From: Candidatus Desantisbacteria bacterium CG1_02_38_46
GTDB lineage: Bacteria > Desantisbacteria > UBA1551 > UBA1559
NCBI GenBank assembly: GCA_001871015.1
Contig: MNUO01000079.1
Location: 1 to 14,518 of the forward strand
Direction: 5' to 3'
DNA: 14,518 nucleotides
The translations under genes and the position numbers were made by a program. The stretch's first letter is position 1. Each line of letters begins with the position of its first letter. Below the pieces are notes generated by a model that had not been told where the DNA came from, did no database searches, and was given only the letters and a program-made list of their open reading frames with translations. Below are positions 1 to 10,867 of this stretch, in pieces.

Positions 1-2
1 AA

Positions 3-89
3 GGGTATTTCCGAGGGGAATCGCTAATTTTCATTGATATATCAGTACTTAGGAGATTTGTGCTCGTTAGATTCCCCCCTTCGGCATTT
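3..89 (+). repeat. tRNA-derived att-like direct repeat, copy 1
   Basis: This 87-bp block matches 2288-2374 with 7 mismatches. Its last 20 nt (67-86) read as the 3' half of a tRNA: T loop TTAGATT, T-stem strand CCCCC, acceptor strand CTTCGGC, discriminator A, with no encoded CCA. The sequence 5' of the T loop cannot pair as a T stem, so this is not a tRNA gene but what remains of a tRNA 3' end at the far side of an integrated element. A GCCGAAG acceptor partner is typical of tRNA-Leu. The homology and the tRNA-like parse are seen directly; the att role is inferred. Confidence 0.7.
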
Positions 90-209
90 GTTTTGTCCGA
101 GTAGTGGCAGAGTTTACTCTGCTAATTGTAGCACAGGGCTTTATGCCCTGCCTTCCTCTTTCCCTGTGCGAGAGGACGAAGGTGGGGGGATTATTTTTAT
201 GTAAATCCC

Positions 210-226
210 TTGTGCCAGATTTGTGC
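210..226 (+). repeat. TTGTGCC direct-repeat site, segment A left end
   Basis: TTGTGCCAGATTTGTGC is two copies of TTGTGC(C) with an 11-bp period, about one helical turn. The same double site occurs at 2205-2222, 2490-2507, 4774-4790 and 8245-8262, always in non-coding DNA near a segment end. Arm-type binding sites for a tyrosine recombinase or an accessory factor would look like this; that role is inference. Confidence 0.5.
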
Positions 227-274
227 AATCTGAAACTTGTTGAATCTGTCAAAAAATTTTCTTTTTCCCAAGAG

Positions 275-294
275 AATGGACGGTGTCCCTATTT
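275..294 (+). repeat. REP-like CTGTCCCTATTT unit
   Basis: AATGGACGGTGTCCCTATTT recurs with few changes at 2529-2548 and 9781-9801, and a related longer form sits inside queE at 12591-12674. It resembles the GGGAC/GTCCC repeats associated with REP-associated tyrosine transposases. No transposase is present in the window. Confidence 0.55.
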
Positions 295-376
295 CCTATT
301 ATATTAAATGAATCCGTTGTTTACAATTATTACTCGGCATGACCGATGGAATCAGGTGTGACAAATCAGGATTTAT

Positions 377-405
377 TTGACTTTTAAATCAAGATGTGCT
401 ATAAT
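377..405 (+). promoter_or_regulatory. sigma-70 promoter for the wHTH/MNT gene
   Basis: TTGACT (377-382), a 17-nt spacer and TATAAT (400-405), with an extended -10 TG at 397-398. Transcription should start near 412, so the longer reading frame beginning at TTG 377 cannot be the gene start and the ATG at 455 is preferred. Confidence 0.8.
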
Positions 406-416
406 GTTTTATAAAA

Positions 417-442
417 CGAACAAATGTTCGGAAAATAGAACA
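417..442. promoter_or_regulatory. LexA-like palindrome plus extra half-site
   Basis: CGAACAAATGTTCG (417-430) is a perfect inverted repeat matching the Gram-positive-type LexA box CGAAC-N4-GTTCG. It lies just after the predicted transcription start. A further half-site GAACA at 438-442 makes a second, wider palindrome with TGTTC 425-429. It could equally be the operator for the winged-helix domain of the gene it precedes. Confidence 0.55.
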
Positions 443-454
443 TTGGAGAAAATG

Positions 455-1057
455 ATGAGATTTCATGATATATTAGAGGATATTTTTTCCAGCAAGGTAA
501 AAATATCTGTTGTTAAAATATTGTTTCGGTATCCAGAAAAGAAATTTAGTGGCAGAGAATTAGCGAGAGTTGTTAATGCTTCTCCCTCGAGAGTGTGGGA
601 AATTCTGAATTTTCTACAACGATATGGAATAATTGAAAGTGCGAGGATTGGAAATACAATTGCATGGAATTTGAACAAAAGCAGTATATTTTCAAAAGAA
701 TTAAGCAAGGTTTTTCATTTAGAAAAGAAAATGTTTAGAGATTTAAAACATAAAATAACCCATTTATTCAAAAAACGGTTATTTGTCAAAAGGGTAATAC
801 TTTTTGGTTCAGTTGCTCATGGAAAAGAATCGCCTGAAAGTGATATAGATCTTCTTATTGTGGTTAAGAAAGAAAACGATAAGAAAATTGCAAGAGATAT
901 AATTCAACAACTGAACCCAGTTTTTCTATCTTTATACGGGAATATGATTTCAGAAATTATTTATTCTGAGAAAGAATGGTTGGCAAAGAGAAACACGCCC
1001 CTTGCAAAGAATATAGAATCCAATGGAGAAGTTCTTTTTGAAAGGGAAGCAGCGTGA
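455..1057 (+). CDS. winged-helix/MNT nucleotidyltransferase fusion
   Basis: This 200-residue protein has an N-terminal winged-helix domain (about residues 12-75; the recognition-helix region around ASPSRVWEILNFL) and a C-terminal minimal nucleotidyltransferase domain. The NTase signature GSVAHGKESPESDIDLL starts at residue 118, with metal-binding Asp130 and Asp132. MNT proteins are usually one half of MNT-HEPN toxin-antitoxin pairs, where they modify or neutralise the HEPN toxin; the helix-turn-helix suggests it also represses its own operon. I chose ATG 455 because GGAG at 445-448 gives a 6-nt spacing and an upstream TTG lies inside the promoter. The next gene starts within its stop codon (GTGA), implying translational coupling. 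Regulation is probably through the palindrome at 417-442. Confidence 0.8.
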   Translation: MRFHDILEDIFSSKVKISVVKILFRYPEKKFSGRELARVVNASPSRVWEILNFLQRYGIIESARIGNTIAWNLNKSSIFSKELSKVFHLEKKMFRDLKHKITHLFKKRLFVKRVILFGSVAHGKESPESDIDLLIVVKKENDKKIARDIIQQLNPVFLSLYGNMISEIIYSEKEWLAKRNTPLAKNIESNGEVLFEREAA

Positions 1058-1266
1058 ACAAAATAAAAGTGCACGATATAGTTGTATTGCTTAAGAAAAT
1101 CAAAGTGAAAAATATAGATGAAAAAATAAAGCAGGTCCTATCTATACTTTCTGTAAAAAATCTTGTAGAATATGAAGCAAGAGAATTCAGAGGAAGTGAT
1201 TCAAGGAAAATTATAATTCAGGTAGAACGCTTGTACGTTTGGGTAAACCAACTCCTTCCCGTCTGA
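1054..1266 (+). CDS. small coupled partner of the MNT gene (HEPN-like?)
   Basis: A 70-residue protein starts at GTG 1054, overlapping the stop codon of the nucleotidyltransferase gene. It is charged and mostly helical in appearance. Its second half (around KNLVEYEAREF and RLYVWVNQLL) resembles the C-terminal helices of small HEPN-type proteins found next to MNT genes. No R-x4-6-H ribonuclease motif is present and it is about half the length of a typical HEPN toxin, so it may be a shortened or inactive partner or an unrelated small subunit. The coupling to the upstream gene is seen directly; the family link is a weak inference. Confidence 0.5.
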   Translation: MNKIKVHDIVVLLKKIKVKNIDEKIKQVLSILSVKNLVEYEAREFRGSDSRKIIIQVERLYVWVNQLLPV

Positions 1267-1403
1267 ATTTGATAACAACTTTCGTTTTGTCAAAAAATGG
1301 GCACTGTTTTTTGAATAAAATTACCAAAACTAAATTGGGCGCTAATTCCGATCTAGGAAATGAAGTAGAAACTGAAGATGGAAATTGAGGGTAATCATAA
1401 AAT

Positions 1404-1432
1404 TTGACAACAGAATTCGCAGACAATAAAAC
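1404..1432 (+). promoter_or_regulatory. candidate promoter of the DUF3800 gene
   Basis: TTGACA (1404-1409), 17 nt, then TAAAAC (1427-1432). The -35 is consensus and the -10 matches at 4 of 6 positions. It lies just upstream of the AAGGG ribosome-binding site (1450-1454) of the gene at 1461. Confidence 0.45.
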
Positions 1433-1460
1433 ATTGAAAATGGTTTTTCAAGGGTAACCG

Positions 1461-2027
1461 ATGACAAAATATTATTTCTTTTTGGATGAAACCGGAGACC
1501 ACGGGCTTAACTATGTAGATAAAAACTTTCCACTGTTTCTTTTGTGTGGTTGCCTTTTCAACGAAGGTAGATTACTTGAATTAGAAAAAAGAATGAATGA
1601 CTTCAAAATAAAATATTTTAAAACTACAGAAGTAATTTTACATTCCCGCGAGACAAGAAAATGCGAAGGTCCTTTTCAAATATTATTTGATTTAAAACTG
1701 AAGGCTGATTTTTATGCAGACTTAAATAAAATATTAGAAAAAGCAGAGTATAAAATTATTACTTCTGGAATAAATAAGGAGGAGTATATCAAGAAGTACG
1801 GGAGGGGCGCTAAAGATCCATACAGCATCTCTTTATCTTTTATTATAGAAAGATTGATTTTTTATTTGGATACTTTTGCTAAAGAATCAATTGTGGAAAT
1901 AAAATTAGAAGAAAGGGGAAGAAAAGAAGATGAGATGCTTGCCGCTCATTTCAATATTATAGAAAAGAAAATATATTGCGATAATAATGGTAAATATGAA
2001 GGATGGGGTTTAAAACTATTTCCATAA
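1461..2027 (+). CDS. DUF3800-family protein, internally shortened
   Basis: The start FFLDETGDHG (Asp9-Glu10) and the C-terminal ending EGWGLKLFP are hallmarks of the DUF3800 family, which is common in defence islands and phage-related regions; its biochemical role is not established. The start at ATG 1461 has AAGGG six bases upstream. At 188 residues it is shorter than I expect. The family's usual middle-to-late block with a GLQ-A-DL type motif is missing, while the last 24 residues (165-188) look like a normal family end. This points to an in-frame deletion near residue 164 (about position 1953). It sits alone behind its own promoter in segment A and is probably inactive if the missing Asp is catalytic. 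Confidence 0.7.
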   Translation: MTKYYFFLDETGDHGLNYVDKNFPLFLLCGCLFNEGRLLELEKRMNDFKIKYFKTTEVILHSRETRKCEGPFQILFDLKLKADFYADLNKILEKAEYKIITSGINKEEYIKKYGRGAKDPYSISLSFIIERLIFYLDTFAKESIVEIKLEERGRKEDEMLAAHFNIIEKKIYCDNNGKYEGWGLKLFP

Positions 2028-2035
2028 AATAAAAA

Positions 2036-2058
2036 GCCCCTCTGTTAAACAGAGAGGC
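2036..2058 (-). terminator. hairpin terminator, oriented to the - strand
   Basis: A GCC-x-CTCTGTT / AACAGAG-x-GGC hairpin is preceded on the + strand by AAAAA. Read on the - strand it is a stem followed by TTTTTATTTTA, a classic intrinsic terminator. On the + strand no T-run follows, so termination of the DUF3800 transcript here would be weak. A second GC-rich inverted element (ATCG/CGAT around 2067-2088) follows immediately. No - strand gene reads into it within the window. Confidence 0.5.
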
Positions 2059-2287
2059 TCTCTATCGACCGGGAGACACCCCGATCCTTGATTTTTATTT
2101 CTAATGTAATTATATCATATTTTTAATAAAAAGTCAAGTTTTCGCATTAAATCACGAAAAAAATAACAAAATAAAGGCATAGTGCTATAAGTGGTCTTTA
2201 AAATTTGTGCCAGATTTGTGCCAAGTTCAGACAAAAACAAACACAAGAATATAAAAACAAGTAAAAACAAATAAAAGAATCGCAGAG
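2059..2287. other. non-coding right end of segment A
   Basis: No gene is seen. It contains a small GC-rich hairpin (about 2067-2088), the TTGTGCC double repeat at 2205-2222, and an A-rich stretch (about 2228-2278) with recurring AAAAACA runs that could be bent DNA. Confidence 0.6.
2205..2238 (+). repeat. TTGTGCC double repeat with CAGACAAAAACA, segment A right end
   Basis: TTGTGCC-AGAT-TTGTGCC followed by a TTCAGACAAAAAC stretch. The whole unit (about 2201-2240) is nearly identical to 8241-8280, at the right end of segment C. This links the ends of two different segments and supports one mobilisation machinery for both. Confidence 0.55.
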
Positions 2288-2374
2288 GGGTATTATCGAG
2301 GGGAATCGCTAATTTTCATTGATATATCAGGACTTAGAAGATTTGTGCTCGGTCGATTCCTCCCTTCGGCATTT
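2288..2374 (+). repeat. tRNA-derived att-like direct repeat, copy 2
   Basis: It is about 92% identical to 3-89. The tRNA-like part is 2352-2371: loop GTCGATT, CCTCC, CTTCGGC and discriminator A. It is the boundary between segments A and B. The 60 bp upstream of the tRNA-like part, including ATTTGTGCTC, are shared with copy 1, so the element ends as well as the att core are conserved. Confidence 0.7.
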
Positions 2375-2489
2375 TAGATTTTACCGACAGTAAATGTTTT
2401 TTTATGGGCGAAGGTTTATTCGGAACCCCTATTGCTTTTTTTTCAGTTTTCCCTCGATGATTTTATTTTTATAAAATATTGAAAAATCC

Positions 2490-2507
2490 TTGTGCCATTT
2501 TTGTGCC
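2490..2507 (+). repeat. TTGTGCC direct-repeat site, segment B left end
   Basis: TTGTGCCATTTTTGTGCC: same 11-bp period as the other sites but a diverged 4-nt linker. It lies about 120 bp after the att-like core, matching the position of 210-226 relative to copy 1. Confidence 0.5.
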
Positions 2508-2528
2508 ATATAAAATTCAAAAACTTAA

Positions 2529-2548
2529 AACGGGCGCTGTCCCTATTT
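2529..2548 (+). repeat. REP-like CTGTCCCTATTT unit
   Basis: AACGGGCGCTGTCCCTATTT, close to 275-294 and 9781-9801. It again lies shortly after a TTGTGCC site, as in segment A, so it may be part of the element left end there. Confidence 0.5.
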
Positions 2549-2635
2549 AACATTTTACCATATAAAGAAGGTTGGATTCATGAAAATGGTAAGCGGACAC
2601 CAAAAATGATAAGGACTGCGTGATTACAAAAACAA

Positions 2636-3025
2636 ATGGCTAAAAAATATAATTCCAAAGATTTAATTAAATATACTGTTGCACAGATGAAAAGAAGGCG
2701 CTACGCTACTGCTCATGCGTTCTGGGTTTTCGCCTTTGAGAATTTCCTAGAAGAAGCGTATAAAAAGGTTACAGGTTCAGAGCCAGATCCAAATCTGACA
2801 AACCGAGAAATTACTGATTTACTTGGAAGAAGAGGATATAATTGGAGGCAATTAAAAAATTTAAACTGGAAGAGAAATCAGATAATTCATAACGCTTTTA
2901 TAAACGAAGATGAAAGCGGGGAATTTTCAAGGTTAACAGAAGAATTAGGGTATGTTATATTTAATGATAAAAAATCTCTTAAAGAGAGAAAAGAAGAGAT
3001 AGACACAGAATTGGCTTTGGAATAG
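2636..3025 (+). CDS. HEPN-like putative ribonuclease
   Basis: A 129-residue, mostly helical protein. The segment WKRNQIIHNAF holds Arg80 and His85, which form an R-x4-H motif, the catalytic signature of HEPN ribonucleases. The preceding helix (residues 20-44, with FWVFAFENFLEEAYKKV) is consistent with the HEPN four-helix fold. Such proteins are toxins or abortive-infection effectors. No obvious antitoxin follows; the next reading frame is a remnant. The start at ATG 2636 lacks a clear ribosome-binding site, and an in-frame stop lies five codons upstream. The motif is seen directly; toxin function is inferred. Confidence 0.65.
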   Translation: MAKKYNSKDLIKYTVAQMKRRRYATAHAFWVFAFENFLEEAYKKVTGSEPDPNLTNREITDLLGRRGYNWRQLKNLNWKRNQIIHNAFINEDESGEFSRLTEELGYVIFNDKKSLKERKEEIDTELALE

Positions 3026-3297
3026 GAAAGGAAAACGAAAGGGTTAGAAAGGCGGCTATCAGTGCATTGTTTCTCCGCGACCGCAACAGAACAGTCAGGG
3101 TTTACCTTGATTTTGGGACGGAAGCAATCAAGGAAAGGCTTAAATATTACAACCTTTTGTACGATAAGGATTTCAAAAGTTTGTTTAAAGCATTGTGTGA
3201 TAAATATCCTGGTATAAAATTTTTCAATGTAGAACACTATTCCATTATTACTGAAGAGATTCCTATTATTAAAAGGATTGAGCATCACGCGAATTAG
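3026..3297 (+). pseudogene. unrecognised gene remnant after the HEPN gene
   Basis: An open frame runs from a stop at 2980 to the stop at 3297, but the only usable start codon is TTG 3067, which lacks good ribosome-binding spacing. Residues before that TTG (from about ENERVRKAAISALFLRDRN) read like ordinary protein, so the true start was probably lost or a frameshift separates it from the HEPN gene, which lies in another frame. The C-terminal part is charged and ends RIEHHAN. I do not recognise the family. Confidence 0.35.
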
Positions 3298-3346
3298 TTA
3301 AAAACCGTCTTGATAAAACCAGAAGTTTGTGAAAATTTTCAATAAC

Positions 3347-3375
3347 TTGACATTTACCATAAATTATGGTATAAT
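3347..3375 (+). promoter_or_regulatory. consensus sigma-70 promoter
   Basis: TTGACA (3347-3352), exactly 17 nt, TATAAT (3370-3375). Both hexamers are perfect consensus. The spacer and downstream region are occupied by two operator palindromes, so this is a strong promoter kept under tight repression. Confidence 0.9.
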
Positions 3376-3395
3376 TACCAATAATTATGGTAAAT
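3352..3395. promoter_or_regulatory. twin palindromic operators
   Basis: Two 15-bp near-perfect palindromes, ACCATAAATTATGGT (3356-3370) and ACCAATAATTATGGT (3377-3391), have centres 21 bp apart, i.e. two helical turns. An outer pair, ATTTACCATAA (3352-3362) and TTATGGTAAAT (3385-3395), encloses them. They overlap the spacer, -10 and start of transcription. The obvious binder is the winged-helix protein encoded at 3419. Confidence 0.8.
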
Positions 3396-3418
3396 GTCTT
3401 ATTGTGTGGAGTAATGTG

Positions 3419-3748
3419 ATGCTTGAATCATTGTTTGGCAACCTAACGGTTGAAAAAATTCTTTTTTATCTTCAGGTATACAGGCAGGGATATCCAAAGG
3501 GAATTTCAAGACTTTTTGCTACCCCGGTTAATGGAATCCAGCAGCAGTTAAGAAGACTTGAAGAAGGTGGGATAGTTGTAAGTTTTCTTCAGGGGAGAAC
3601 CAGAATATACCAGTTTAATCCACGCTACCCATTCCTGAAGGAATTAAAGGTACTTATTGATAAGGCACTCGAATTTTTGCCTGAAGATGAAATCAAGAAA
3701 TATTACAGGCAGAGAACGCGTCCGAGAAGGGCTGGTAAACCCCTGTGA
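3419..3748 (+). CDS. winged-helix regulator, probable antitoxin
   Basis: A 109-residue protein with an ArsR/MarR-like winged-helix core: a helical N-terminus (LFGNLTVEKILFYLQVY), a helix-turn-helix around residues 27-50 (GISRLFATPVNGIQQQLRRLEEGG) and a wing near FLQGRTRIYQFN. The tail is basic. I chose ATG 3419 because GGAG at 3408-3411 is seven bases upstream; the frame also opens further upstream but that part lies in the promoter. The next gene starts inside its stop codon (GTGA), so the pair is translationally coupled. It most likely represses its own promoter through the twin palindromes and neutralises the nucleotidyltransferase, as AbiEi does for AbiEii. The antitoxin role is inferred. 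Confidence 0.75.
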   Translation: MLESLFGNLTVEKILFYLQVYRQGYPKGISRLFATPVNGIQQQLRRLEEGGIVVSFLQGRTRIYQFNPRYPFLKELKVLIDKALEFLPEDEIKKYYRQRTRPRRAGKPL

Positions 3749-4308
3749 AAATTGATTGGGCAAAGATTGGAATTCGTGACTTATCAGGTTTAATTTGCGA
3801 AATATTAAGAAAAAAAGGAATAGATGCAACGCTTGTTGGCGGTGCCTGCATTTCAATCTATTCCGATAACAGATACATTTCAGGCGATTTGGATTTTATC
3901 ACTTATTCCTCAACCAAAGAAATAGAAGAGATATTTACACCCCTGGGGTTTCTCAGAAAAAGCCGCAGGCACTTTGAACATCCAGAATGCCGATTTTTTA
4001 TTGAGTTTCCTGCTCCACCAATTGCAATTGGCAATGAACTAATCAAGGATTATCAATCAATAAAGACAAAATTTGGCATAATTCGTATGTTGACACCCAC
4101 TGATTGTGTCAGAGATAGATTGGCGGCATACTTTTTCTGGGGCGATATGCAGTCTCTGGAACAAGCATTGATGGTTGCAAACAGGCAGAATATAAACATT
4201 GAAGTTATTAAGAAATGGGCATTGAAAGAAGGAGCCAGTAAAGAATTGAATAAATTTCTTTCTAAATTAAAAAAGACTAAGACCTCTTCCCAACTGCAAA
4301 CAACTTGA
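3745..4308 (+). CDS. AbiEii-like nucleotidyltransferase, probable toxin
   Basis: A 187-residue protein starting at GTG 3745. It has the nucleotidyltransferase core TLVGGACISIYSDNRYISGDLDF: Gly32-Gly33 and the metal-binding pair Asp48, Asp50. A downstream basic/acidic block, TPTDCVRDRLAAYFFW (around residues 113-128), is the helical motif that follows the catalytic core in this NTase superfamily. It is clearly shorter than the AbiEii at 7261, so it is a distinct subfamily (DUF6036-like). Together with the winged-helix gene it forms a compact operon resembling a type IV-like NTase toxin-antitoxin module. The transferred nucleotide and target RNA or protein cannot be told from sequence. Confidence 0.75.
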   Translation: MKIDWAKIGIRDLSGLICEILRKKGIDATLVGGACISIYSDNRYISGDLDFITYSSTKEIEEIFTPLGFLRKSRRHFEHPECRFFIEFPAPPIAIGNELIKDYQSIKTKFGIIRMLTPTDCVRDRLAAYFFWGDMQSLEQALMVANRQNINIEVIKKWALKEGASKELNKFLSKLKKTKTSSQLQTT

Positions 4309-4364
4309 TGAAATAACGGAAACAGTTCTACTTTTCGCCGGCAGGAAAACAAAGGAAACGTTGA

Positions 4365-4684
4365 ATGTCACATATCAAATACTGGATTCCCTTTTTCAAG
4401 GCAATGACGGGCAGGTGCGATAAATCCGCTACAAAGATTGACGAGATCTGCGAGGAGTGGATAATGTTTTTTAACCCAAAATATACGATAGATGAATTCT
4501 GTTTTGTTTGCAGAGATTGTTCATTAAATCATATTACACTCATGGCAAGGCAACAAGCAGGGATTTCCAGGCGTTATTTGGGATTTCTGCCCAAGCGGTA
4601 CATAAGGAACTATCCAAACTGGTGGAAATGAAGATAATCAAACCGCAAGGAAAGGGCAGGACATCGTATTATATTCTTGTTTGA
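4365..4684 (+). pseudogene. decayed 3' end of an AlbA_2/RecG-like regulator
   Basis: Two frames each carry part of a recognisable C-terminus. One (4365 onward) has the ATKIDEICEEW stretch followed by NPKYTIDEFCFV, matching the end of the ATP-binding domain in AlbA_2 (Schlafen-like) proteins. The other (4511-4684) encodes a good winged helix, ATSRDFQALFGISAQAVHKE and then KGRTSYYILV, ending at TGA 4682. The frame change lies near 4500-4515. The N-terminal AlbA_2 and ATPase parts are absent, so the gene is dead. It sits at the right end of segment B, probably truncated by deletion or recombination. Confidence 0.6.
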
Positions 4685-4728
4685 GGATTGTTAGGACCGG
4701 AGGAGAGGTAAGGTTTCTGTGTAGGCAA

Positions 4729-4752
4729 GGTTGATGATTAGGTTGATGATTA
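4729..4752 (+). repeat. 12-bp tandem repeat, two copies
   Basis: GGTTGATGATTA is repeated twice without interruption (4729-4740, 4741-4752), directly before the segment B right end. No coding role is seen. Confidence 0.7.
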
Positions 4753-4773
4753 GAAATTGGGGAGAAACAGAAT

Positions 4774-4816
4774 TTGTGCCAGATTTGTGCTCGTTCAACT
4801 CCCCCCTTCGGCATTT
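4774..4816 (+). repeat. tRNA-derived att-like repeat, copy 3, with TTGTGCC site
   Basis: TTGTGCC-AGAT-TTGTGC (4774-4790) runs straight into a tRNA-like 3' half at 4794-4813: loop TTCAACT, CCCCC, CTTCGGC and discriminator A. Here the T loop fits the canonical TTCRAnY best of the three copies. The upstream 60 bp shared by copies 1 and 2 are missing except for AGATTTGTGCTCG. It marks the boundary between segments B and C. Confidence 0.65.
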
Positions 4817-4863
4817 TCTTGCACTCGTCAGCAGTAGTTACCGTCGCAGAAAGGAGCATAGAT

Positions 4864-5791
4864 GTGGATACAGAAAAAGGAGAGAACTTGAAGAATAAGC
4901 AAGCAGAACAACAAAGTTCTGGCATAGAAAAGAATAGCATTGCCATTTACCGCACTAAAGATGGGAAAACCGAGATAGAAGTTAAACTTAAAGAAGAAAC
5001 AGTTTGGTTGAGTCAGATTAAGATGGCAAGACTTTTTGATAAGGTGGTACCTACAATCAATGAGCATATAAAAAATATTTACAAAGAGAAGGAATTAGAA
5101 CAAAAATCAACTATTCGGAAATTCCGAATAGTTCAAACTGAAGGTGGAAGACGAGTAGAACGTCCTATCGATTTCTATAACTTAGATGTAATTATATCAG
5201 TTGGCTATAGAGTGAAATCGTTAAGAGGCACCCAATTTCGTATCTGGGCAACTAAAACATTAAAAGACTATTTGATTCAGGGTTATGCTGTAAATCAAAA
5301 AAGACTTTCCGAGCAGTCAGTAAAACTAAAAGAACTTCAAGATACAATAAAATTCATAAAGACCAAATCCAGCCATCCTGAGTTATCAGACCAGACCCAG
5401 GAACTTTTAAATATAATTAACGAATATGCAAATTCACTCACACTTTTATACCAATATGATAAAGGAACGCTTAAAGAAATCAGGGGTAAAAAACCAGAGT
5501 TTATTTTAACATATAAAGACAGTCAAAAATTGATTGTTTAAGTCAAAGCAAGTCTTGCGAAAAAAAGTGAAGCCACAAACTTATTTGGACAGGAAGTAAA
5601 TCACAAATTTGATGGCATTATCGGTGCCATATATCAGACCTTTGACAAAAAAAGAATTGTACCAAGGTATATCAGAAAAAGCAGCAAATTTACTTTACCT
5701 GGTAATTAAAAACCATCCGTTTGTTGACGGCAATAAACGCATAGGTTCTTTGCTATTTATCTACTTTTTGGAGAAGAACCATTATAACTAA
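4864..5791 (+). pseudogene. broken RhuM-Fic (death-on-curing-like) gene
   Basis: The first part (GTG 4864 to TAA 5539-5541) is a RhuM-family protein: the blocks EVKLKEETVWLSQIKMARLF, FYNLDVIISVGYRVKS and TQFRIWATKTLKDYL are diagnostic. The same frame continues after the stop with family-like sequence (LFGQEVNHKFDGIIGAIYQTF). It then needs a +1 shift at a run of seven A (5647-5653), after which the Fic motif HPFVDGNKR appears. It stops at 5791, well short of the usual C-terminus. Fic domains AMPylate or phosphorylate target proteins. With a stop, a frameshift and a truncation the full protein cannot be made; a RhuM-only product of about 225 residues is possible. AAGGAG at 4851-4856 favours GTG 4864; TTG 4888, with AGGAG upstream, is an alternative. 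Confidence 0.75.
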
Positions 5792-5829
5792 ACAAATTGG
5801 TGCCGGCCATAAGCAAAAAGGATAAGAAA

Positions 5830-6192
5830 ATGATTTCTTATGAGGATGCACCTGATATCAAGGAAAAAGTTGATGGTATTATTTCTGCTGCCGGACTTAC
5901 CCACATAAAAAATGAATTCCTTATCTGTATTCGTTCCCGTGGTTCCGGGGCGCGCCGCGTCCTTGCCAGATGCCATGCTTTACCAAGAATAATGCAGAAA
6001 GCATTGAATACCGGCGCTCGGTACGTAATTGAGGTAATAAGCGAAAAGTTTGACAGGCTGTCAGAAGAACAACAGATGAAAACACTGATTCATGAACTTA
6101 TGCATATTCCAAAATCTTTTGGCGGTGGTTTTATTCACCATAATATTGTAAATTCACAAACAGTCAATAAAATATGGAAGGAAATTCAATAA
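5830..6192 (+). CDS. small HExxH metallopeptidase, phage type
   Basis: A 120-residue protein with the zinc-binding motif HELMH (His88, Glu89, His92), followed by a Gly-rich turn and HH at 103-104 that can supply the third ligand. The sequence context (LIHELMHIPKSFGGGFIHHN) and the size match the putative phage metallopeptidase family. An Arg-rich block (residues 36-47, RSRGSGARRVLA) precedes it. I chose ATG 5830 (AAGG eight bases upstream) over the TTG at 5797, which adds residues from the end of the broken Fic region. It lies alone between the RhuM-Fic remnant and AbiE. Substrate unknown; the host role may be defence or regulatory proteolysis. Confidence 0.65.
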   Translation: MISYEDAPDIKEKVDGIISAAGLTHIKNEFLICIRSRGSGARRVLARCHALPRIMQKALNTGARYVIEVISEKFDRLSEEQQMKTLIHELMHIPKSFGGGFIHHNIVNSQTVNKIWKEIQ

Positions 6193-6204
6193 AAAGAGGG
6201 AGGG

Positions 6205-6277
6205 ATTGCTTCCCCCCAATGCTTGTTTGCTCTTACGAGAGCCTACCTCGGCACAAGCAAACAATGGGGGTCGCAAT
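6205..6277. repeat. imperfect inverted repeat, REP/MITE-like
   Basis: Matching arms ATTGC (6205-6209)/GCAAT (6273-6277), CCCCC/GGGGG and TTGTTTGCT (6223-6231)/AGCAAACAA (6256-6264) make a long bulged hairpin. The ends ATTGCTT and GTCGCAATGAC are of the kind seen in widespread CATTGCGA-type intergenic repeats. It overlaps no real gene and fills the gap before the AbiE promoter. Confidence 0.6.
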
Positions 6278-6378
6278 GACATATGGTAAGGCTCCCACCA
6301 CAAAGACTGGCGGATATTCGAAAAGGTCTGCCCTACAAGAGCCCGATTTTTCTGTTATAGAACAAAAAAGCGAATTTA

Positions 6379-6457
6379 CTTGCAAAATTATGCAAAATGT
6401 GGTATAATATATACTACAAAATGAGAAAAGTAGCAAGTTAATGCATAATTTGGCAAG
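6379..6457 (+). promoter_or_regulatory. AbiE promoter with flanking inverted operators
   Basis: TTGCAA (6380-6385), 17 nt, TATAAT (6403-6408) with an extended -10 TG. Two 20-bp sites in inverted orientation flank the core promoter: CTTGCAAAATTATGCAAAAT (6379-6398) and the reverse complement of 6438-6457, which match at about 16 of 20 positions. AbiEi antitoxins are known to repress their own promoter by binding paired inverted repeats, so these are the likely AbiEi sites. Confidence 0.75.
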
Positions 6458-6469
6458 AAAGAGTCTAAA

Positions 6470-7261
6470 ATGAATACACAAGAAAATCTTTTAAATAATA
6501 GCCCAGTATTCACTTCAAAAGAATATCAGGATGAATTTAAGGAAATAAATACTAAATCTACTGTGCGGACCAAAATAGGCAGATTGCTAAAAAAAGGTAG
6601 AATGGGAACAATGGGCGGCGGGATATATTTTGTTATCCCCCAGGGCTATGATGTAAAGTCATACACTCCAGATAAATTTCTTGCTGCATCAAAAATGCGA
6701 GAGGACGCTGTCATAGGTTATCATTCTGCTTTTGAACTGCTTGGTTATGCTACACAAGTATTCAATACCGTGTATTATATCACTTCGTTGCAAAAGCAAA
6801 TGAAATCTTTTAGAGGAGTTACATATCTTTCGGTCTCTGTGCAAAGACCCCTGCAGGGTAGGGCTAGTTTTGGAATAGAAAAAATAGCAAGGGACAAAGT
6901 AAGAGTTGCGGTGACCAACAAAGAGCGTACGCTTATAGATTGTCTGGATAGACTTGAATATTCCGGTGGATTTGAAGAATTATGCCATTGCGCGGAAGCT
7001 CTTCCATATCTTGACCTGGATTTTGTTTTTGAATATCTTTCTGTTCTGTCAAAGAAAAGTCTTTTTGCAAAAGCAGGATATTTGCTTGAGAAATATAAGG
7101 ATAAATTTTTCTTTGATGAGAAATGGGTAAAGAGATTTATCTCTGAAAGATTTAAGTCTCCGTCTATAGCATATCTTGGAAGTCGCTCGGATGATAATAA
7201 ATTAATAGCGAGATGGAACCTTATGGTTCCCAAAAAATATCTTGTAGAAAGCGAACGTTAA
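6470..7261 (+). CDS. abiEi: AbiEi antitoxin of the type IV AbiE system
   Basis: This 263-residue protein has the AbiEi layout: an N-terminal winged helix (residues 12-60, with VFTSKEYQDEF and TKIGRLLKKGRM), then a larger C-terminal domain with the family stretch AVIGYHSAFELLGYATQ and, further on, VAVTNKERTLIDCLDR. AbiEi counteracts the AbiEii nucleotidyltransferase without binding it directly and represses the operon. ATG 6470 is the first sensible start; its ribosome-binding site is weak (GAAAGAG). Its stop TAA overlaps the AbiEii start as TAATG, the usual coupled arrangement. The gene looks intact. Confidence 0.88.
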   Translation: MNTQENLLNNSPVFTSKEYQDEFKEINTKSTVRTKIGRLLKKGRMGTMGGGIYFVIPQGYDVKSYTPDKFLAASKMREDAVIGYHSAFELLGYATQVFNTVYYITSLQKQMKSFRGVTYLSVSVQRPLQGRASFGIEKIARDKVRVAVTNKERTLIDCLDRLEYSGGFEELCHCAEALPYLDLDFVFEYLSVLSKKSLFAKAGYLLEKYKDKFFFDEKWVKRFISERFKSPSIAYLGSRSDDNKLIARWNLMVPKKYLVESER

Positions 7262-8208
7262 TGCAATATGCTCCTGAATATATAAACAAAATAAGAAATG
7301 GATTTCAGGGTGATTCAGTAGAGAAGGTTTTACGCCTGCAGACTCTGCTTAGTGATTTCAGCAAACACCCTTATTTGAAAGATAGAATAGTACTTAAAGG
7401 TGGGACAGCTATAACACAGTTTCACTTTCAGTTTCCACGTATATCAGTAGACATTGATCTGGACTATATCGGTAGTCCGAAGCTTGAAGGAATGAAGGAG
7501 GAACGCCCAAGATTAGAAGAAACAATGGACCAAATTTTCAAAAGCCAGAAATATGTCTTTGAATGGAGCGAAGATGAGCATGCCGGGAGAAAATGTATGC
7601 TTAAATTTGTAAACTTTCACGGAAACAACGATAACGTTCGTGTGGATATAAATTATCTGATGCGTATACCGGTAATGCAGATTGTCAGGATGAAATCTTT
7701 TAGTTTTGAAGAAGATTTTCATTTAGAATTTCCTGTCCTTCAGTTAGAAGAGTTGTATGCCGGTAAGACAAAAGCTCTTCTGGAAAGGGGTCTGGCACGA
7801 GACCTGTATGACTTATATCGATTGTTAAAAGATAAACTACCTATAGATACAAATATGTGGAGGACTATAACGATTTTATTCTGCTCCTCGTTGAGAGATG
7901 ATTTTAGAAAGTATACATCAAAAAGACTGGATATAGTATCAGAAACAGATGTCTGGACTGCTCTCCATCCTATTTTGAGGTCAGATGAGCGTCCAACAAG
8001 AGAAGAAATGATGAAAATAATTTATCCTTTTATTGAGGAGTTGTTTTCGTTTAAGGAGAATGAGAAGCAATATCTGGATTCGCTGATGAAAGGTGTTTAT
8101 GACCCGTCTTTATTGTTCGGAAAAGGTGCTCTTGCTGAAAAATTAGCAAAGCATCCGGCTCTTTTGTGGAAGGCAAAAAATGTCAGTGAATATCTGACAA
8201 AACAATGA
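7261..8208 (+). CDS. abiEii: AbiEii nucleotidyltransferase toxin
   Basis: A 315-residue protein starting at ATG 7261, one base into the AbiEi stop. Motif I LKGGTAITQF (Gly47-Gly48) plus ISVDIDLDY (Asp64, Asp66) forms the NTase metal site. The later motif with Lys169, Arg180, Asp181 and Asp184 (GKTKALLERGLARDLYDLYR) is the conserved AbiEii signature. Length and motif spacing are normal, so it is probably active. Family members of this type block growth by transferring nucleotides, in some cases to tRNA acceptor ends, and give abortive infection against phage. It ends the coding part of segment C. Confidence 0.9.
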   Translation: MQYAPEYINKIRNGFQGDSVEKVLRLQTLLSDFSKHPYLKDRIVLKGGTAITQFHFQFPRISVDIDLDYIGSPKLEGMKEERPRLEETMDQIFKSQKYVFEWSEDEHAGRKCMLKFVNFHGNNDNVRVDINYLMRIPVMQIVRMKSFSFEEDFHLEFPVLQLEELYAGKTKALLERGLARDLYDLYRLLKDKLPIDTNMWRTITILFCSSLRDDFRKYTSKRLDIVSETDVWTALHPILRSDERPTREEMMKIIYPFIEELFSFKENEKQYLDSLMKGVYDPSLLFGKGALAEKLAKHPALLWKAKNVSEYLTKQ

Positions 8209-8421
8209 AGATTTAAGTTAGAATGTGGTAGGTCAAAGGAAAATTTGTGCCAGATTTGTGCCATTTCCAGACAAAAACAGATATTTTATTTGCCTTTAAC
8301 AAATATTATACTAATATTCATTAAAGGTTTGACGAAAAGTAGGAAAGTTCAGTTTCATCTTACTCAATCGACTGAACAAATTGTAAATGGAGGCGAGTGA
8401 ATATAGTCGGGGGAGGATAAG
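8209..8421. other. non-coding end of segment C
   Basis: It holds the TTGTGCC double site (8245-8262) and an inverted pair GTTCAGT (8347-8353)/ACTGAAC (8371-8377) with a 17-nt loop. No tRNA-like att core follows, unlike at the ends of segments A and B. No gene is seen. Confidence 0.5.
8245..8278 (+). repeat. TTGTGCC double repeat, segment C right end
   Basis: TTGTGCC-AGAT-TTGTGCC then CCAGACAAAAACA, nearly identical to 2205-2238. It suggests the right end of segment C was once like that of segment A, with its att core since lost. Confidence 0.55.
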
Positions 8422-8757: not shown

Positions 8758-9210
8758 ATGGCAGAGAAAATAATAGCGGTAAATCGCAAGGCATATCACA
8801 ATTATTTTATCCTTGAGACATACGAATCTGGACTTGTTTTGACTGGAGGCGAAGTAAAATCTCTTCGTGAAGGTAAGGTCAATCTCGGCGATAGTTTTGG
8901 CAGGATAGAAAAAAATGAAGCATTTTTGTATAATATGCACATAAGCCCGTATTTTTATGATGCTAAAGAAGAATATGACCCTTTACGCACGAGAAAATTG
9001 CTTTTTCACAGGGAAGAAATAAATCGCCTGATTGGTAAAATAAACCAGAAGGGACTTACGCTTATACCATTGAAATTATATTTTAAAAAAGGCAGGGCTA
9101 AAATAGAATTGGGATTAGCAAAAGGCAAGAAATTGCACGATAAACGAGAAGTTTTGAAAAAGAAAGCAGACAAAAGAGAAATTGACAGAGCGATGAGAGG
9201 GAGGGGGTGA
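8758..9210 (+). CDS. smpB: SsrA-binding protein SmpB
   Basis: SmpB binds the tRNA-like domain of tmRNA and brings it to stalled ribosomes for trans-translation. Family blocks are clear: [36 protein letters not shown] and, near the C-terminus, [14 protein letters not shown] with a basic tail ([17 protein letters not shown]). The 150-residue length is normal. ATG 8758 fits the family N-terminus, but there is no ribosome-binding site and a TATAAT ends two bases upstream, so initiation is unusual. Its partner RNA ssrA follows with an overlap: the predicted mature tmRNA starts at 9203, inside the last three codons, and the TGA stop (9208-9210) is largely within the acceptor stem. Confidence 0.95.
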
Positions 9211-9589
9211 AAAGGTTTCGACGGGAATATAGACCAGTGGTTGCATACCGAGAATGTCGGGAATCTCGTTAAATTTCCGGCAAAAACATAAACGCTAACA
9301 CTTTGGTAGCGTAATCCCCCCCTTCTTGCTTTCGTCCCCCTTGTGGGGACTTTCGCAAGAAAGCAGGGGGGCACGTCCTGCCGGTTTCGCCTGCAGGGTC
9401 GGCAAGGGCGTAAGATATGCAGGATAGTCCTGCGTTTTTTGCCTGAGAAGGCAGGATGAAAACTAATCAGGCTGGTCCCGCTTTTATCCCGCATACAGGA
9501 ATGGGCGGGACAAGATTAAATGTATGATAAGTATGTAGTAACTTCTGGGGAGATATTTTCGGACGCGGGTTCGATTCCCGCCACCTCCA
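9203..9589 (+). ncRNA. ssrA: transfer-messenger RNA (tmRNA)
   Basis: The 5' acceptor strand GGGGGTG (9203-9209) pairs with CACCTCC (9582-9588) with one G-U pair, and the discriminator A is 9589. Near the 5' end is the conserved TTCGACGGG. The T arm GCGGG-TTCGATT-CCCGC is at 9565-9581. CCA is not encoded. The tag frame most likely resumes at GGC 9279 and ends at TAA 9312-9314, giving GKNINANTLVA, a plausible degradation tag ending in LVA. A long irregular hairpin (9316-9372, with inner stem GTCCCC/GGGGAC) follows the tag. A T-run right after 9589 may act as terminator. Length, about 387 nt, is normal. The exact resume codon is inferred. Confidence 0.92.
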
Positions 9590-9593
9590 TTTT
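9568..9593 (+). repeat. ssrA 3'-end att copy, left
   Basis: This 26-bp stretch (T loop to just past the discriminator: TTCGATTCCCGCCACCTCCA and flanks) is repeated exactly at 9703-9728. The identity begins at the last T-stem base pairs, as expected for tyrosine-recombinase sites that use the T-loop/3'-end of tRNA-like genes. Confidence 0.8.
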
Positions 9594-9702: not shown

Positions 9703-9728
9703 GGTTCGATTCCCGCCACCTCCATTTT
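9703..9728 (+). repeat. ssrA 3'-end att copy, right
   Basis: Exact copy of 9568-9593. The sequence before it (TGTGG) cannot form the T stem with CCCGC, so this copy is not a functional RNA end. It lies 20 bp upstream of the amidase start, so the element end may now supply upstream sequence for that gene. Confidence 0.8.
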
Positions 9729-9748: not shown

Positions 9749-10867
9749 ATGAAAAACAATTATAAAATAAGGCTTTTCAAAAATGGTCGCTGTCCCTATT
9801 TTTTAATATTTTTTTCTCTTATTATTTTGTGTACAGATATCAATGCTTACATTCTTGAACCCACCAAAATTGATGGCAAAGAGTATATTTCCCTTGATGA
9901 TATCTGTGAAATTTTTGACATTTCTTTTGATTTCCAATCATATCCCAGAAAAATAGTTTTGAAAAGTGAAAATGAAACAATTACACTATTACCGTTCAGT
10001 CCGCAGATGATGATTTCCAGGTCCGCAACCAGCCGGGAAGTTGTTGGCGGGAGCCGGGTTTATATTTTAGAATCCCCTCCAAAATTTAAAGATGGAATAA
10101 TCTTTATCCCGATAAGTTTTATTGGTAAAGCTTTTGGAGAAAAAGCACTTGAAAGTTTAAAGGAGAAGAAAGAGGCTAAAATCAAAACCATTGTAATAGA
10201 TGCTGGGCATGGGGGGAAGGACCCGGGAGCCATAGGCCCAAATGGGTTAATGGAAAAGGAAATCAACTTAGATGTGGCCCACAAGGTTTATCGCCTTCTA
10301 AATTCAAGATTGCCCCTCAAAGTATTGATGACAAGGAAAGATGATATTTTTGTTCCATTGTTCGAGCGCACTAAGTTCGCAAACTCAAAAGGAGCAGATT
10401 TGTTTGTCAGTATTCACTGCAACGCCGCATTTTCACCAAAGACGAAAGGATGTGAAACATATTTTGTTTCTCCTGCTTTAGACCCAGATGCGAGAGCTGT
10501 AGAAGTATTGGAGAATTCAGTAATAAAATTAGAGTTTGAAGAGTCAAAAATTCTCAAAAATAATTATCTTGCATCAATCCTCGAGGATATGGCTTATTAT
10601 GAGTTCGTTCGTGAATCCAGCTTTGCTGCTGCATGTGTCCAGAACAATCTGAGTGAGAGGCTTAACCTTGAAAATAGAGGTATAAAACAGGCTTTGTTTT
10701 ATGTGCTCAGGGGAGCTGCATCACCTTCAATATTGATTGAGATTGCTTTTATTTCAAATCCGGAAGAAGAAGCTAAACTTGCTACAGAATCATTTCGTAA
10801 AGAAGTTAGCGAAGCTATCTTTAATGGAATAAAGGAATATTTGACGACAGGTGGAACATTCAAATAA
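9749..10867 (+). CDS. N-acetylmuramoyl-L-alanine amidase (Amidase_3)
   Basis: A 372-residue exported cell-wall amidase that cleaves the bond between muramic acid and the stem peptide. After a signal peptide (hydrophobic FLIFFSLIILC, residues about 18-28) comes a region like the copper-amine-oxidase N-terminal domain (about 40-135). The zinc amidase domain follows: VIDAGHGGKDPGAIG (His154), MEKEINL (Glu169), SIHCNAA (His223) and the catalytic LIEIAFISNPEEE (Glu331). I chose ATG 9749; the longer frame upstream only translates the ssrA repeat. The signal peptide residues NGRCPYFL (12-19) are encoded by a REP-like repeat found elsewhere in intergenic DNA. queD follows after 6 bp, so it probably heads the que operon. 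Confidence 0.88.
   Translation: MKNNYKIRLFKNGRCPYFLIFFSLIILCTDINAYILEPTKIDGKEYISLDDICEIFDISFDFQSYPRKIVLKSENETITLLPFSPQMMISRSATSREVVGGSRVYILESPPKFKDGIIFIPISFIGKAFGEKALESLKEKKEAKIKTIVIDAGHGGKDPGAIGPNGLMEKEINLDVAHKVYRLLNSRLPLKVLMTRKDDIFVPLFERTKFANSKGADLFVSIHCNAAFSPKTKGCETYFVSPALDPDARAVEVLENSVIKLEFEESKILKNNYLASILEDMAYYEFVRESSFAAACVQNNLSERLNLENRGIKQALFYVLRGAASPSILIEIAFISNPEEEAKLATESFRKEVSEAIFNGIKEYLTTGGTFK
9781..9801 (+). repeat. REP-like unit inside the amidase signal peptide
   Basis: AATGGTCGCTGTCCCTATTT matches the intergenic units at 275-294 and 2529-2548. Here it is translated as NGRCPYF in the signal peptide. Confidence 0.6.

Follow-up and report, generated by a model that had tools for sequence, protein, structure and literature searches.

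The 14,518-bp window considered here is the whole of contig C71 (MNUO01000079.1) in the draft genome G000 of Candidatus Desantisbacteria bacterium CG1_02_38_46 (1.73 Mb, 87.8% complete). It very probably carries a tandem accretion array of small, integrase-less elements that resemble cis-mobilizable elements (CIMEs), stacked at the 3' end of a tRNA-Leu(CAG) gene, between that tRNA and the chromosomal genes smpB and ssrA, and by now partly decayed. Read from left to right, the array comprises the right end of an off-contig element (3-66), attachment (att) core 1, a P' arm at 209, and cassette 1; a P arm at 2204, core 2, a P' arm at 2489, cassette 2, and a fusion of an arm with core 3 (4773-4813); and finally cassette 3, a P-arm remnant (8240-8279), and chromosomal smpB and ssrA. 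The comparison covers two genomes of the phylum, G000 and G001, which belong to different families. The layout is defined by the following features.

3 to 66, forward strand: right end (P-arm side) of the off-contig element, stopping at att core 1; 92% to 2288-2351 and 86% to att-proximal sequence in G001 C34.
67 to 86, forward strand: att core 1 (T loop, T-stem strand, CTTCGGC, A), TTAGATT-CCCCC-CTTCGGC-A; matches the 3' end of tRNA-Leu(CAG) at C74:2726-2811.
87 to 2371, forward strand: cassette 1, between att cores 1 and 2, with att and arm sites at both ends.
2352 to 2371, forward strand: att core 2, GTCGATT-CCTCC-CTTCGGC-A.
2372 to 4813, forward strand: cassette 2, between att cores 2 and 3, with att and arm sites at both ends.
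4794 to 4813, forward strand: att core 3, TTCAACT-CCCCC-CTTCGGC-A.
4814 to 8400, forward strand: cassette 3, right limit approximate, with an arm remnant at its right end and no CTTCGGC core beyond.
8758 to 9589, forward strand: chromosomal right flank with smpB and ssrA (tmRNA), from Pfam SmpB and ARAGORN tmRNA; the same flank adjoins the array in G001.

An earlier interpretation made from the DNA letters alone (the sequence-only reading) described the three 20-nt sites as lying in one orientation, about 2.3-2.4 kb apart, each parsing as the 3' end of a tRNA; all three parse this way at exactly those positions, with start-to-start spacings of 2285 and 2442 bp. With up to two mismatches allowed, the core pattern occurs three times in the window and in none of 300 first-order Markov shuffles. 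The repeats are longer than first noted: 36 nt (AGATTTGTGCTCG...CTTCGGCATTT) are common to all three sites, and 3-89 matches 2288-2374 at 92% over 87 nt. The same reading took the sites for att relics rather than tRNAs, and this agrees with both tests applied: ARAGORN finds no tRNA at any of the three, and the intact tRNA-Leu folds into a cloverleaf of -44.9 kcal/mol (z -4.0) whereas the three sites reach only z -0.6 to +0.4. It had also predicted an intact tRNA-Leu starting with GCCGAAG, which a genome search with the core located on another contig (match C74:2727-2741, the 3' end of the tRNA-Leu gene with anticodon CAG at C74:2726-2811). Between this gene and its own end, C74 carries remnants of a type I restriction subunit (HsdR pieces) and of a Fic protein. 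Because C74 and C71 are separate contigs, we infer the physical link between tRNA and array from synteny in two genomes: in each, an intact target tRNA that would stand at one end of the array (G000 C74:2726-2811; G001 C36:11066-11152) is followed directly by array-type DNA. The possibility that intergenic repeats resemble a tRNA 3' end by chance, which would suit sites unable to fold as tRNAs, has a negligible probability and is ruled out by the shuffles, the co-occurrence of the cores with arm motifs, the intact matching tRNA-Leu in the genome, and the same arrangement in a second family.

Besides the cores, the window holds a second signature, a double repeat of 11-bp period, TTTGTGCCA-NAT-TTGTGC, of which a pattern search finds five copies (0.07 expected). 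With at most one mismatch allowed, the motif is confined in G000 to this array and to one copy about 62 bp 3' of the intact tRNA-Leu(CAG) on C74, which reads TTGTGTCAAATTTGTGC. The TTTGTGCCA double repeat is best read as an arm-type integrase site, from its position and its association with tRNAs and integrases. The arm sites are distributed as follows.

209 to 226, forward strand: P'-side arm site of cassette 1 (CTTGTGCCAGATTTGTGC), from the pattern search.
2200 to 2351, forward strand: P-arm region at the right end of cassette 1, with the arm site at 2204-2221 and core-proximal sequence; 2200-2374 is 92% to G001 C34:8353-8527.
2489 to 2506, forward strand: P'-side arm site of cassette 2 (CTTGTGCCATTTTTGTGC), from the pattern search.
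4771 to 4793, forward strand: right end of cassette 2, a double arm site abutting core 3, from comparison with 2200-2221 and 2338-2351.
8240 to 8279, forward strand: P-arm remnant at the right end of the array; 93% to 2200-2239 and 97.5% to G001 C34:9926-9965.

The fusion of an arm with core 3 is the expected outcome of a 128-bp deletion between AGATTTGTGC repeats.

Phages and bacteria from many phyla have the arm motif some 45-75 bp downstream of tRNA genes, often next to a tyrosine integrase. Among exact matches in IMG/VR, where many of the matching prophages are related to each other, a tyrosine integrase open reading frame (ORF) lies within 400 bp in 15 of 23 stretches, and nine stretches have a same-strand tRNA-Arg whose end precedes the motif by 46-57 bp. 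Bacterial genomes gave 115 exact matches, some of them expected by chance in a collection of this size; 27 of the 115 are located 20-120 bp 3' of a same-strand tRNA, compared with 0.55% of random positions in the same DNA. These tRNAs have eleven different identities, and an integrase lies within 1 kb of the motif in 27 of the 115 stretches. Some integrases next to the motif carry arm-DNA-binding domains, PF14657 in locus L076 and, just below cut-off, PF14657 in L155 and PF12167 in L072. Prophage locus L071 has, at its far end, an identically oriented motif that precedes the core by about 120 bp, like 2204 and 2352 in the window. Among 386 diverse genomes, none except the window's own has more than two arm motifs. 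In the open-access literature the motif sequence is printed in one paper only, whose Table 2 assigns TTGTGCCAAATTTGTGCCAAA to a Lactococcus garvieae prophage as its att core (PMC5431838); this sequence, occurring at both ends, is more likely the arm motif than the att core.

Two further arrangements of the motif were seen. At L169 and L207, in a beta-proteobacterium and in Pseudidiomarina, two arm motifs stand about 220 bp apart in one orientation, as expected at a junction of tandem elements. At L107, L115, L154, L157, L171, L178, L189, and L192 the motif is found immediately 5' of a tRNA encoded on the other strand, several times with an adjoining integrase; this suggests that some relatives make use of tRNA genes, mostly tRNA-Leu, at the 5' side.

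The array probably arose as follows. By means of an N-terminal arm-binding domain, a tyrosine integrase would have bound the TTTGTGCCA double repeats, as arms P and P', and recombined the core of each element with the 3' end of tRNA-Leu; every insertion would have restored the tRNA and shifted older cassettes away from it, leaving each junction with a 20-nt core and arm sites. The toxin-antitoxin and abortive-infection cargo resists loss. The G000 assembly now contains no working integrase of this kind, and the elements may have lost their own or may always have relied on that of a phage or island in the same cell. In this scheme we infer the acting integrase, the order of events, and any present mobility, as well as the role of the motif as an arm site.

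The second family provides a view of the same locus. In G001 a DUF6941 gene upstream, shared with G000, identifies the ortholog of the tRNA-Leu(CAG) gene (C36:11066-11152). After this tRNA comes the cassette 1 nucleotidyltransferase module, which matches the window at 93% over stretches of 790 and 189 bp. The G001 contig with smpB and ssrA has an arm-plus-core site just upstream of smpB (C34:8353-8527), 92% to window 2200-2374, with chromosomal DNA directly after it and an AAA/DUF4143 cassette and another arm before it. Both families therefore have tRNA-Leu, an array, and smpB-ssrA in this order, split over two contigs in each, and in neither of the two genomes is the tRNA-Leu site empty. Host proteins of G000 and G001 are 57-82% identical and differ at 69-89% of fourfold-degenerate sites, whereas the cassette 1 nucleotidyltransferases share 95.5% of amino acids and differ at 17% of such sites; on this difference, the sequences show that the gene module must have spread horizontally, long after the split of the hosts. 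Cores, the intact tRNA, arm sites, and the occupied tRNA of the second family together support repeated integration at one tRNA gene, as the earlier interpretation held, and support the segments between the sites as separately acquired cassettes.

Homologous recombination between arrays offers another route for this exchange: flanking repeats, or some other transposition, would have moved cassettes between families, and the att repeats would merely be old. The homology of cassette 1 with G001 does begin near a GTCCCTATTT motif (about 292; again at 2533 and 9786) rather than at an att core. Against this, both genomes have the module immediately 3' of the orthologous tRNA, the arm and att sequence is itself common at 92%, and the surrounding host DNA (about 60-70%) is far too diverged for efficient homologous exchange, so this explanation is improbable.

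Several observations weigh against an accretion array as proposed here. Cassette 3 has no right att core, which is missing at 8280; the assembly does not connect C74 with C71, leaving the gap between them unassembled; and no integrase responsible for the insertions was identified in G000, a genome only 87.8% complete. Cassette 1 is homologous to G001 only from window 292 onward, a point within the att-bounded unit, and the roughly 155 bp between the G001 tRNA and the start of this homology have no arm sites, so that the gene pair alone, not the whole att-bounded unit, is conserved there.

The integrase was sought at two scales. A permissive six-frame search of the array contigs of both genomes found no integrase remnant, and Pfam and PADLOC scans confirm that, as first described, the segments carry differing toxin-antitoxin and abortive-infection genes. 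In genome-wide searches with PF00589, the only hits in G000 were XerC/XerD-like proteins (C60, C1) and three recombinases encoded together on C15; those in G001 were XerC/XerD and a 46-aa fragment. The tyrosine integrase that the sequence-only reading expected next to the tRNA was not found on C74, on C71, or in G001, and none among 50,697 phage records contains an element with the same right end. The C15 trio (L037-L039), whose genes lie side by side and encode different tyrosine recombinases of 353, 346, and 434 aa, resembles a recombinase-in-trio element.

How the cassettes came to lack an integrase has two possible answers within an accretion array. Under the first, to which we give even odds, the cassettes were once larger autonomous phages, integrative and conjugative elements (ICEs), or integrative and mobilizable elements (IMEs) whose integrase was deleted after insertion, and are now att-bounded fossils, that is, classical CIMEs. 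Such decay is the usual route to CIMEs (PMC5704250), and it is visible here in the truncated partner gene of cassette 1, the Fic fragment, the HsdR pieces of the C74 element, the core missing at 8280, and the arm deletion at att core 3. However, none of the three visible elements retains an integrase remnant beside its P' arm, where autonomous relatives carry int, and cassettes 1 and 2 are about equally short, with little besides toxin-antitoxin-like genes.

Under the second, which is possible but less favored, the elements never had an integrase, and the integrases of co-resident elements recognizing the same arms and cores inserted and excised them in the manner of satellites or cassettes, as the sequence-only reading proposed. 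Cassettes 1 and 2 retain both arms and cores with no integrase and so could, in principle, be substrates for an integrase acting in trans, but the decay of formerly autonomous elements would account for the same observations. The same gene module has been exchanged between families at the same tRNA, and the window is not unique: a tRNA-Pro gene of Rhodocytophaga aerolata (L145) hosts an element of 6.9 kb that has arms and cores at either end and in which no integrase was detected. Set against these points, no helper was identified, G001 has the gene pair of cassette 1 and not its left end, att core 3 and the right end of the array are damaged, and elements of about 2 kb would need some further route between cells. 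A broader proposal is more speculative still and rather unlikely: minimal toxin-antitoxin cassettes with paired core and arms would constitute a trans-mobilized system, in which a shared arm code, TTTGTGCCANATTTGTGCC, read by many tRNA-targeting tyrosine integrases across phyla, would allow whichever integrase is resident to insert the cassettes at tRNA genes, stack them there, and export them.

CIMEs keep their att sites, lack genes for integration and transfer, and can accrete in tandem, as do the ICESt1-related elements of Streptococcus (PMC5704250). The array in the window resembles them in having att sites at both ends (attL and attR are kept by cassettes 1 and 2, while cassette 3 lacks the right core), in the absence of integration genes from Pfam scans and the six-frame search, in the absence of any relaxase, coupling, or type IV secretion family among the scanned window ORFs, and in tandem stacking by site-specific recombination. 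It differs from CIMEs of the ICESt1 kind in that its units are only 2.3-2.4 kb, are mainly toxin-antitoxin-like, and lie at tRNA-Leu, with no ICE or IME partner seen and no intact parent found in the two genomes of the phylum. In Dehalococcoides, many ssrA islands lie in tandem, bounded by approximately 20-bp repeats of the 3' end of this tRNA-like gene, and 15 of them lack an integration module and have been proposed as CIMEs (PMC3146451). The two arrays share tandem islands between approximately 20-bp tRNA-type 3'-end repeats and the absence of integration modules, but Dehalococcoides has a CcrB-like serine recombinase, ssrA as target, and reductive dehalogenase cargo, whereas the window has arms of the tyrosine-integrase type, tRNA-Leu, and defense cargo.

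Like tRNA-targeting prophages with the same arm motif (for example L073, L076, and L081; IMG/VR), the cassettes have a core at a tRNA 3' end followed by TTTGTGCCANATTTGTGCCA in the same orientation; these prophages encode an integrase beside the arm and the cassettes do not. No integrase lies inside the att-bounded units, which distinguishes them from autonomous prophages, IMEs, and ICEs. Phage satellites, such as phage-inducible chromosomal islands (PICIs) and P4-like elements, are likewise small, tRNA-inserted elements with defense genes. They normally encode their own integrase and hijacking genes; the cassettes encode no integrase of their own, and Pfam scans of the window found no capsid or packaging interference families. 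An integron cassette array was rejected: the sites are tRNA-Leu 3' ends, and the tyrosine recombinases score far below the NCBIfam integron-integrase cut-off. The array is unusual in how small its units are and what they carry, in having kept its arm architecture, in having been exchanged between families at a single tRNA, and in how widely its arm motif occurs.

The cargo appears defense-like from its sequence, with toxin-antitoxin and abortive-infection modules, and several of the assignments are weak. The array had first been delimited to 1-4816; the cassettes in that interval stand, whereas the proposed end at 4816 does not, as a third segment follows at about 4814-8400. The genes are as follows.

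452 to 1057, forward strand: cassette 1, winged-helix plus MNT-type nucleotidyltransferase, antitoxin-like (listed ORF 377-1057), from Pfam Polbeta/NTP_transf_2, with a weak NCBIfam MntA match below cut-off.
1054 to 1266, forward strand: cassette 1, truncated partner gene, from alignment to L102:8085-8480 (the G001 copy, 131 aa); no Pfam match.
1461 to 2027, forward strand: cassette 1, DUF3800 protein (Pfam PF12686, 2e-9).
2636 to 3025, forward strand: cassette 2, small HEPN-like protein, weak match (Pfam RiboL-PSP-HEPN, 0.0017, below cut-off).
3329 to 3748, forward strand: cassette 2, winged-helix protein, upstream partner (PADLOC PDC-M05A, 5e-8).
3745 to 4308, forward strand: cassette 2, nucleotidyltransferase-like, DUF2204-like, weak (Pfam PF09970, 0.0065, below cut-off).
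4861 to 5541, forward strand: cassette 3, RhuM family protein, start approximate (Pfam PF13310, 5e-28).
5609 to 5791, forward strand: cassette 3, Fic/Doc fragment (Pfam PF02661, 1e-11).
5797 to 6192, forward strand: cassette 3, phage-type metallopeptidase (Pfam PF18894, 1e-22).
6470 to 7261, forward strand: cassette 3, AbiEi antitoxin (PADLOC AbiEi, 1.6e-62).
7213 to 8208, forward strand: cassette 3, AbiEii nucleotidyltransferase toxin (Pfam PF08843, 8e-25; PADLOC AbiEii, 5e-88).

Relative to the intact 131-aa copy in G001, the partner gene at 1054-1266 has an internal deletion of about 180 bp; its position points to a HEPN-like role. A search of viral contigs returned no relative of the nucleotidyltransferase, and a search of plasmids returned only distant ones (<60% identity).

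Three repeats accompany the array. The 3' end of the tmRNA gene, GGTTCGATTCCCGCCACCTCCATTTT (9568-9593), recurs exactly at 9703-9728, 135 bp downstream; this pair is a second, separate att-like scar adjoining the tRNA-Leu array. A short palindrome (the GGCAGAGTTTACTCTGC region, window about 100-150) has some 60 partial matches across the genome and belongs to an interspersed family like repetitive extragenic palindromic (REP) sequences, here within the left end of cassette 1. The motif GG(A/G/T)CG(C/G)TGTCCCTATTT occurs at 275-312, 2529-2566, and 9782-9819, and the first copy lies close to where cassette 1 becomes homologous to G001; these copies are possibly traces of a REP-associated (IS200-like) transposon.

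Defense and toxin-antitoxin genes can thus pile up at one tRNA without recombinases of their own and pass between bacterial families. The arm motif marks tRNA-integrated elements in many phyla, and it could reveal integrase-less islands that are missed by integrase-based annotation.

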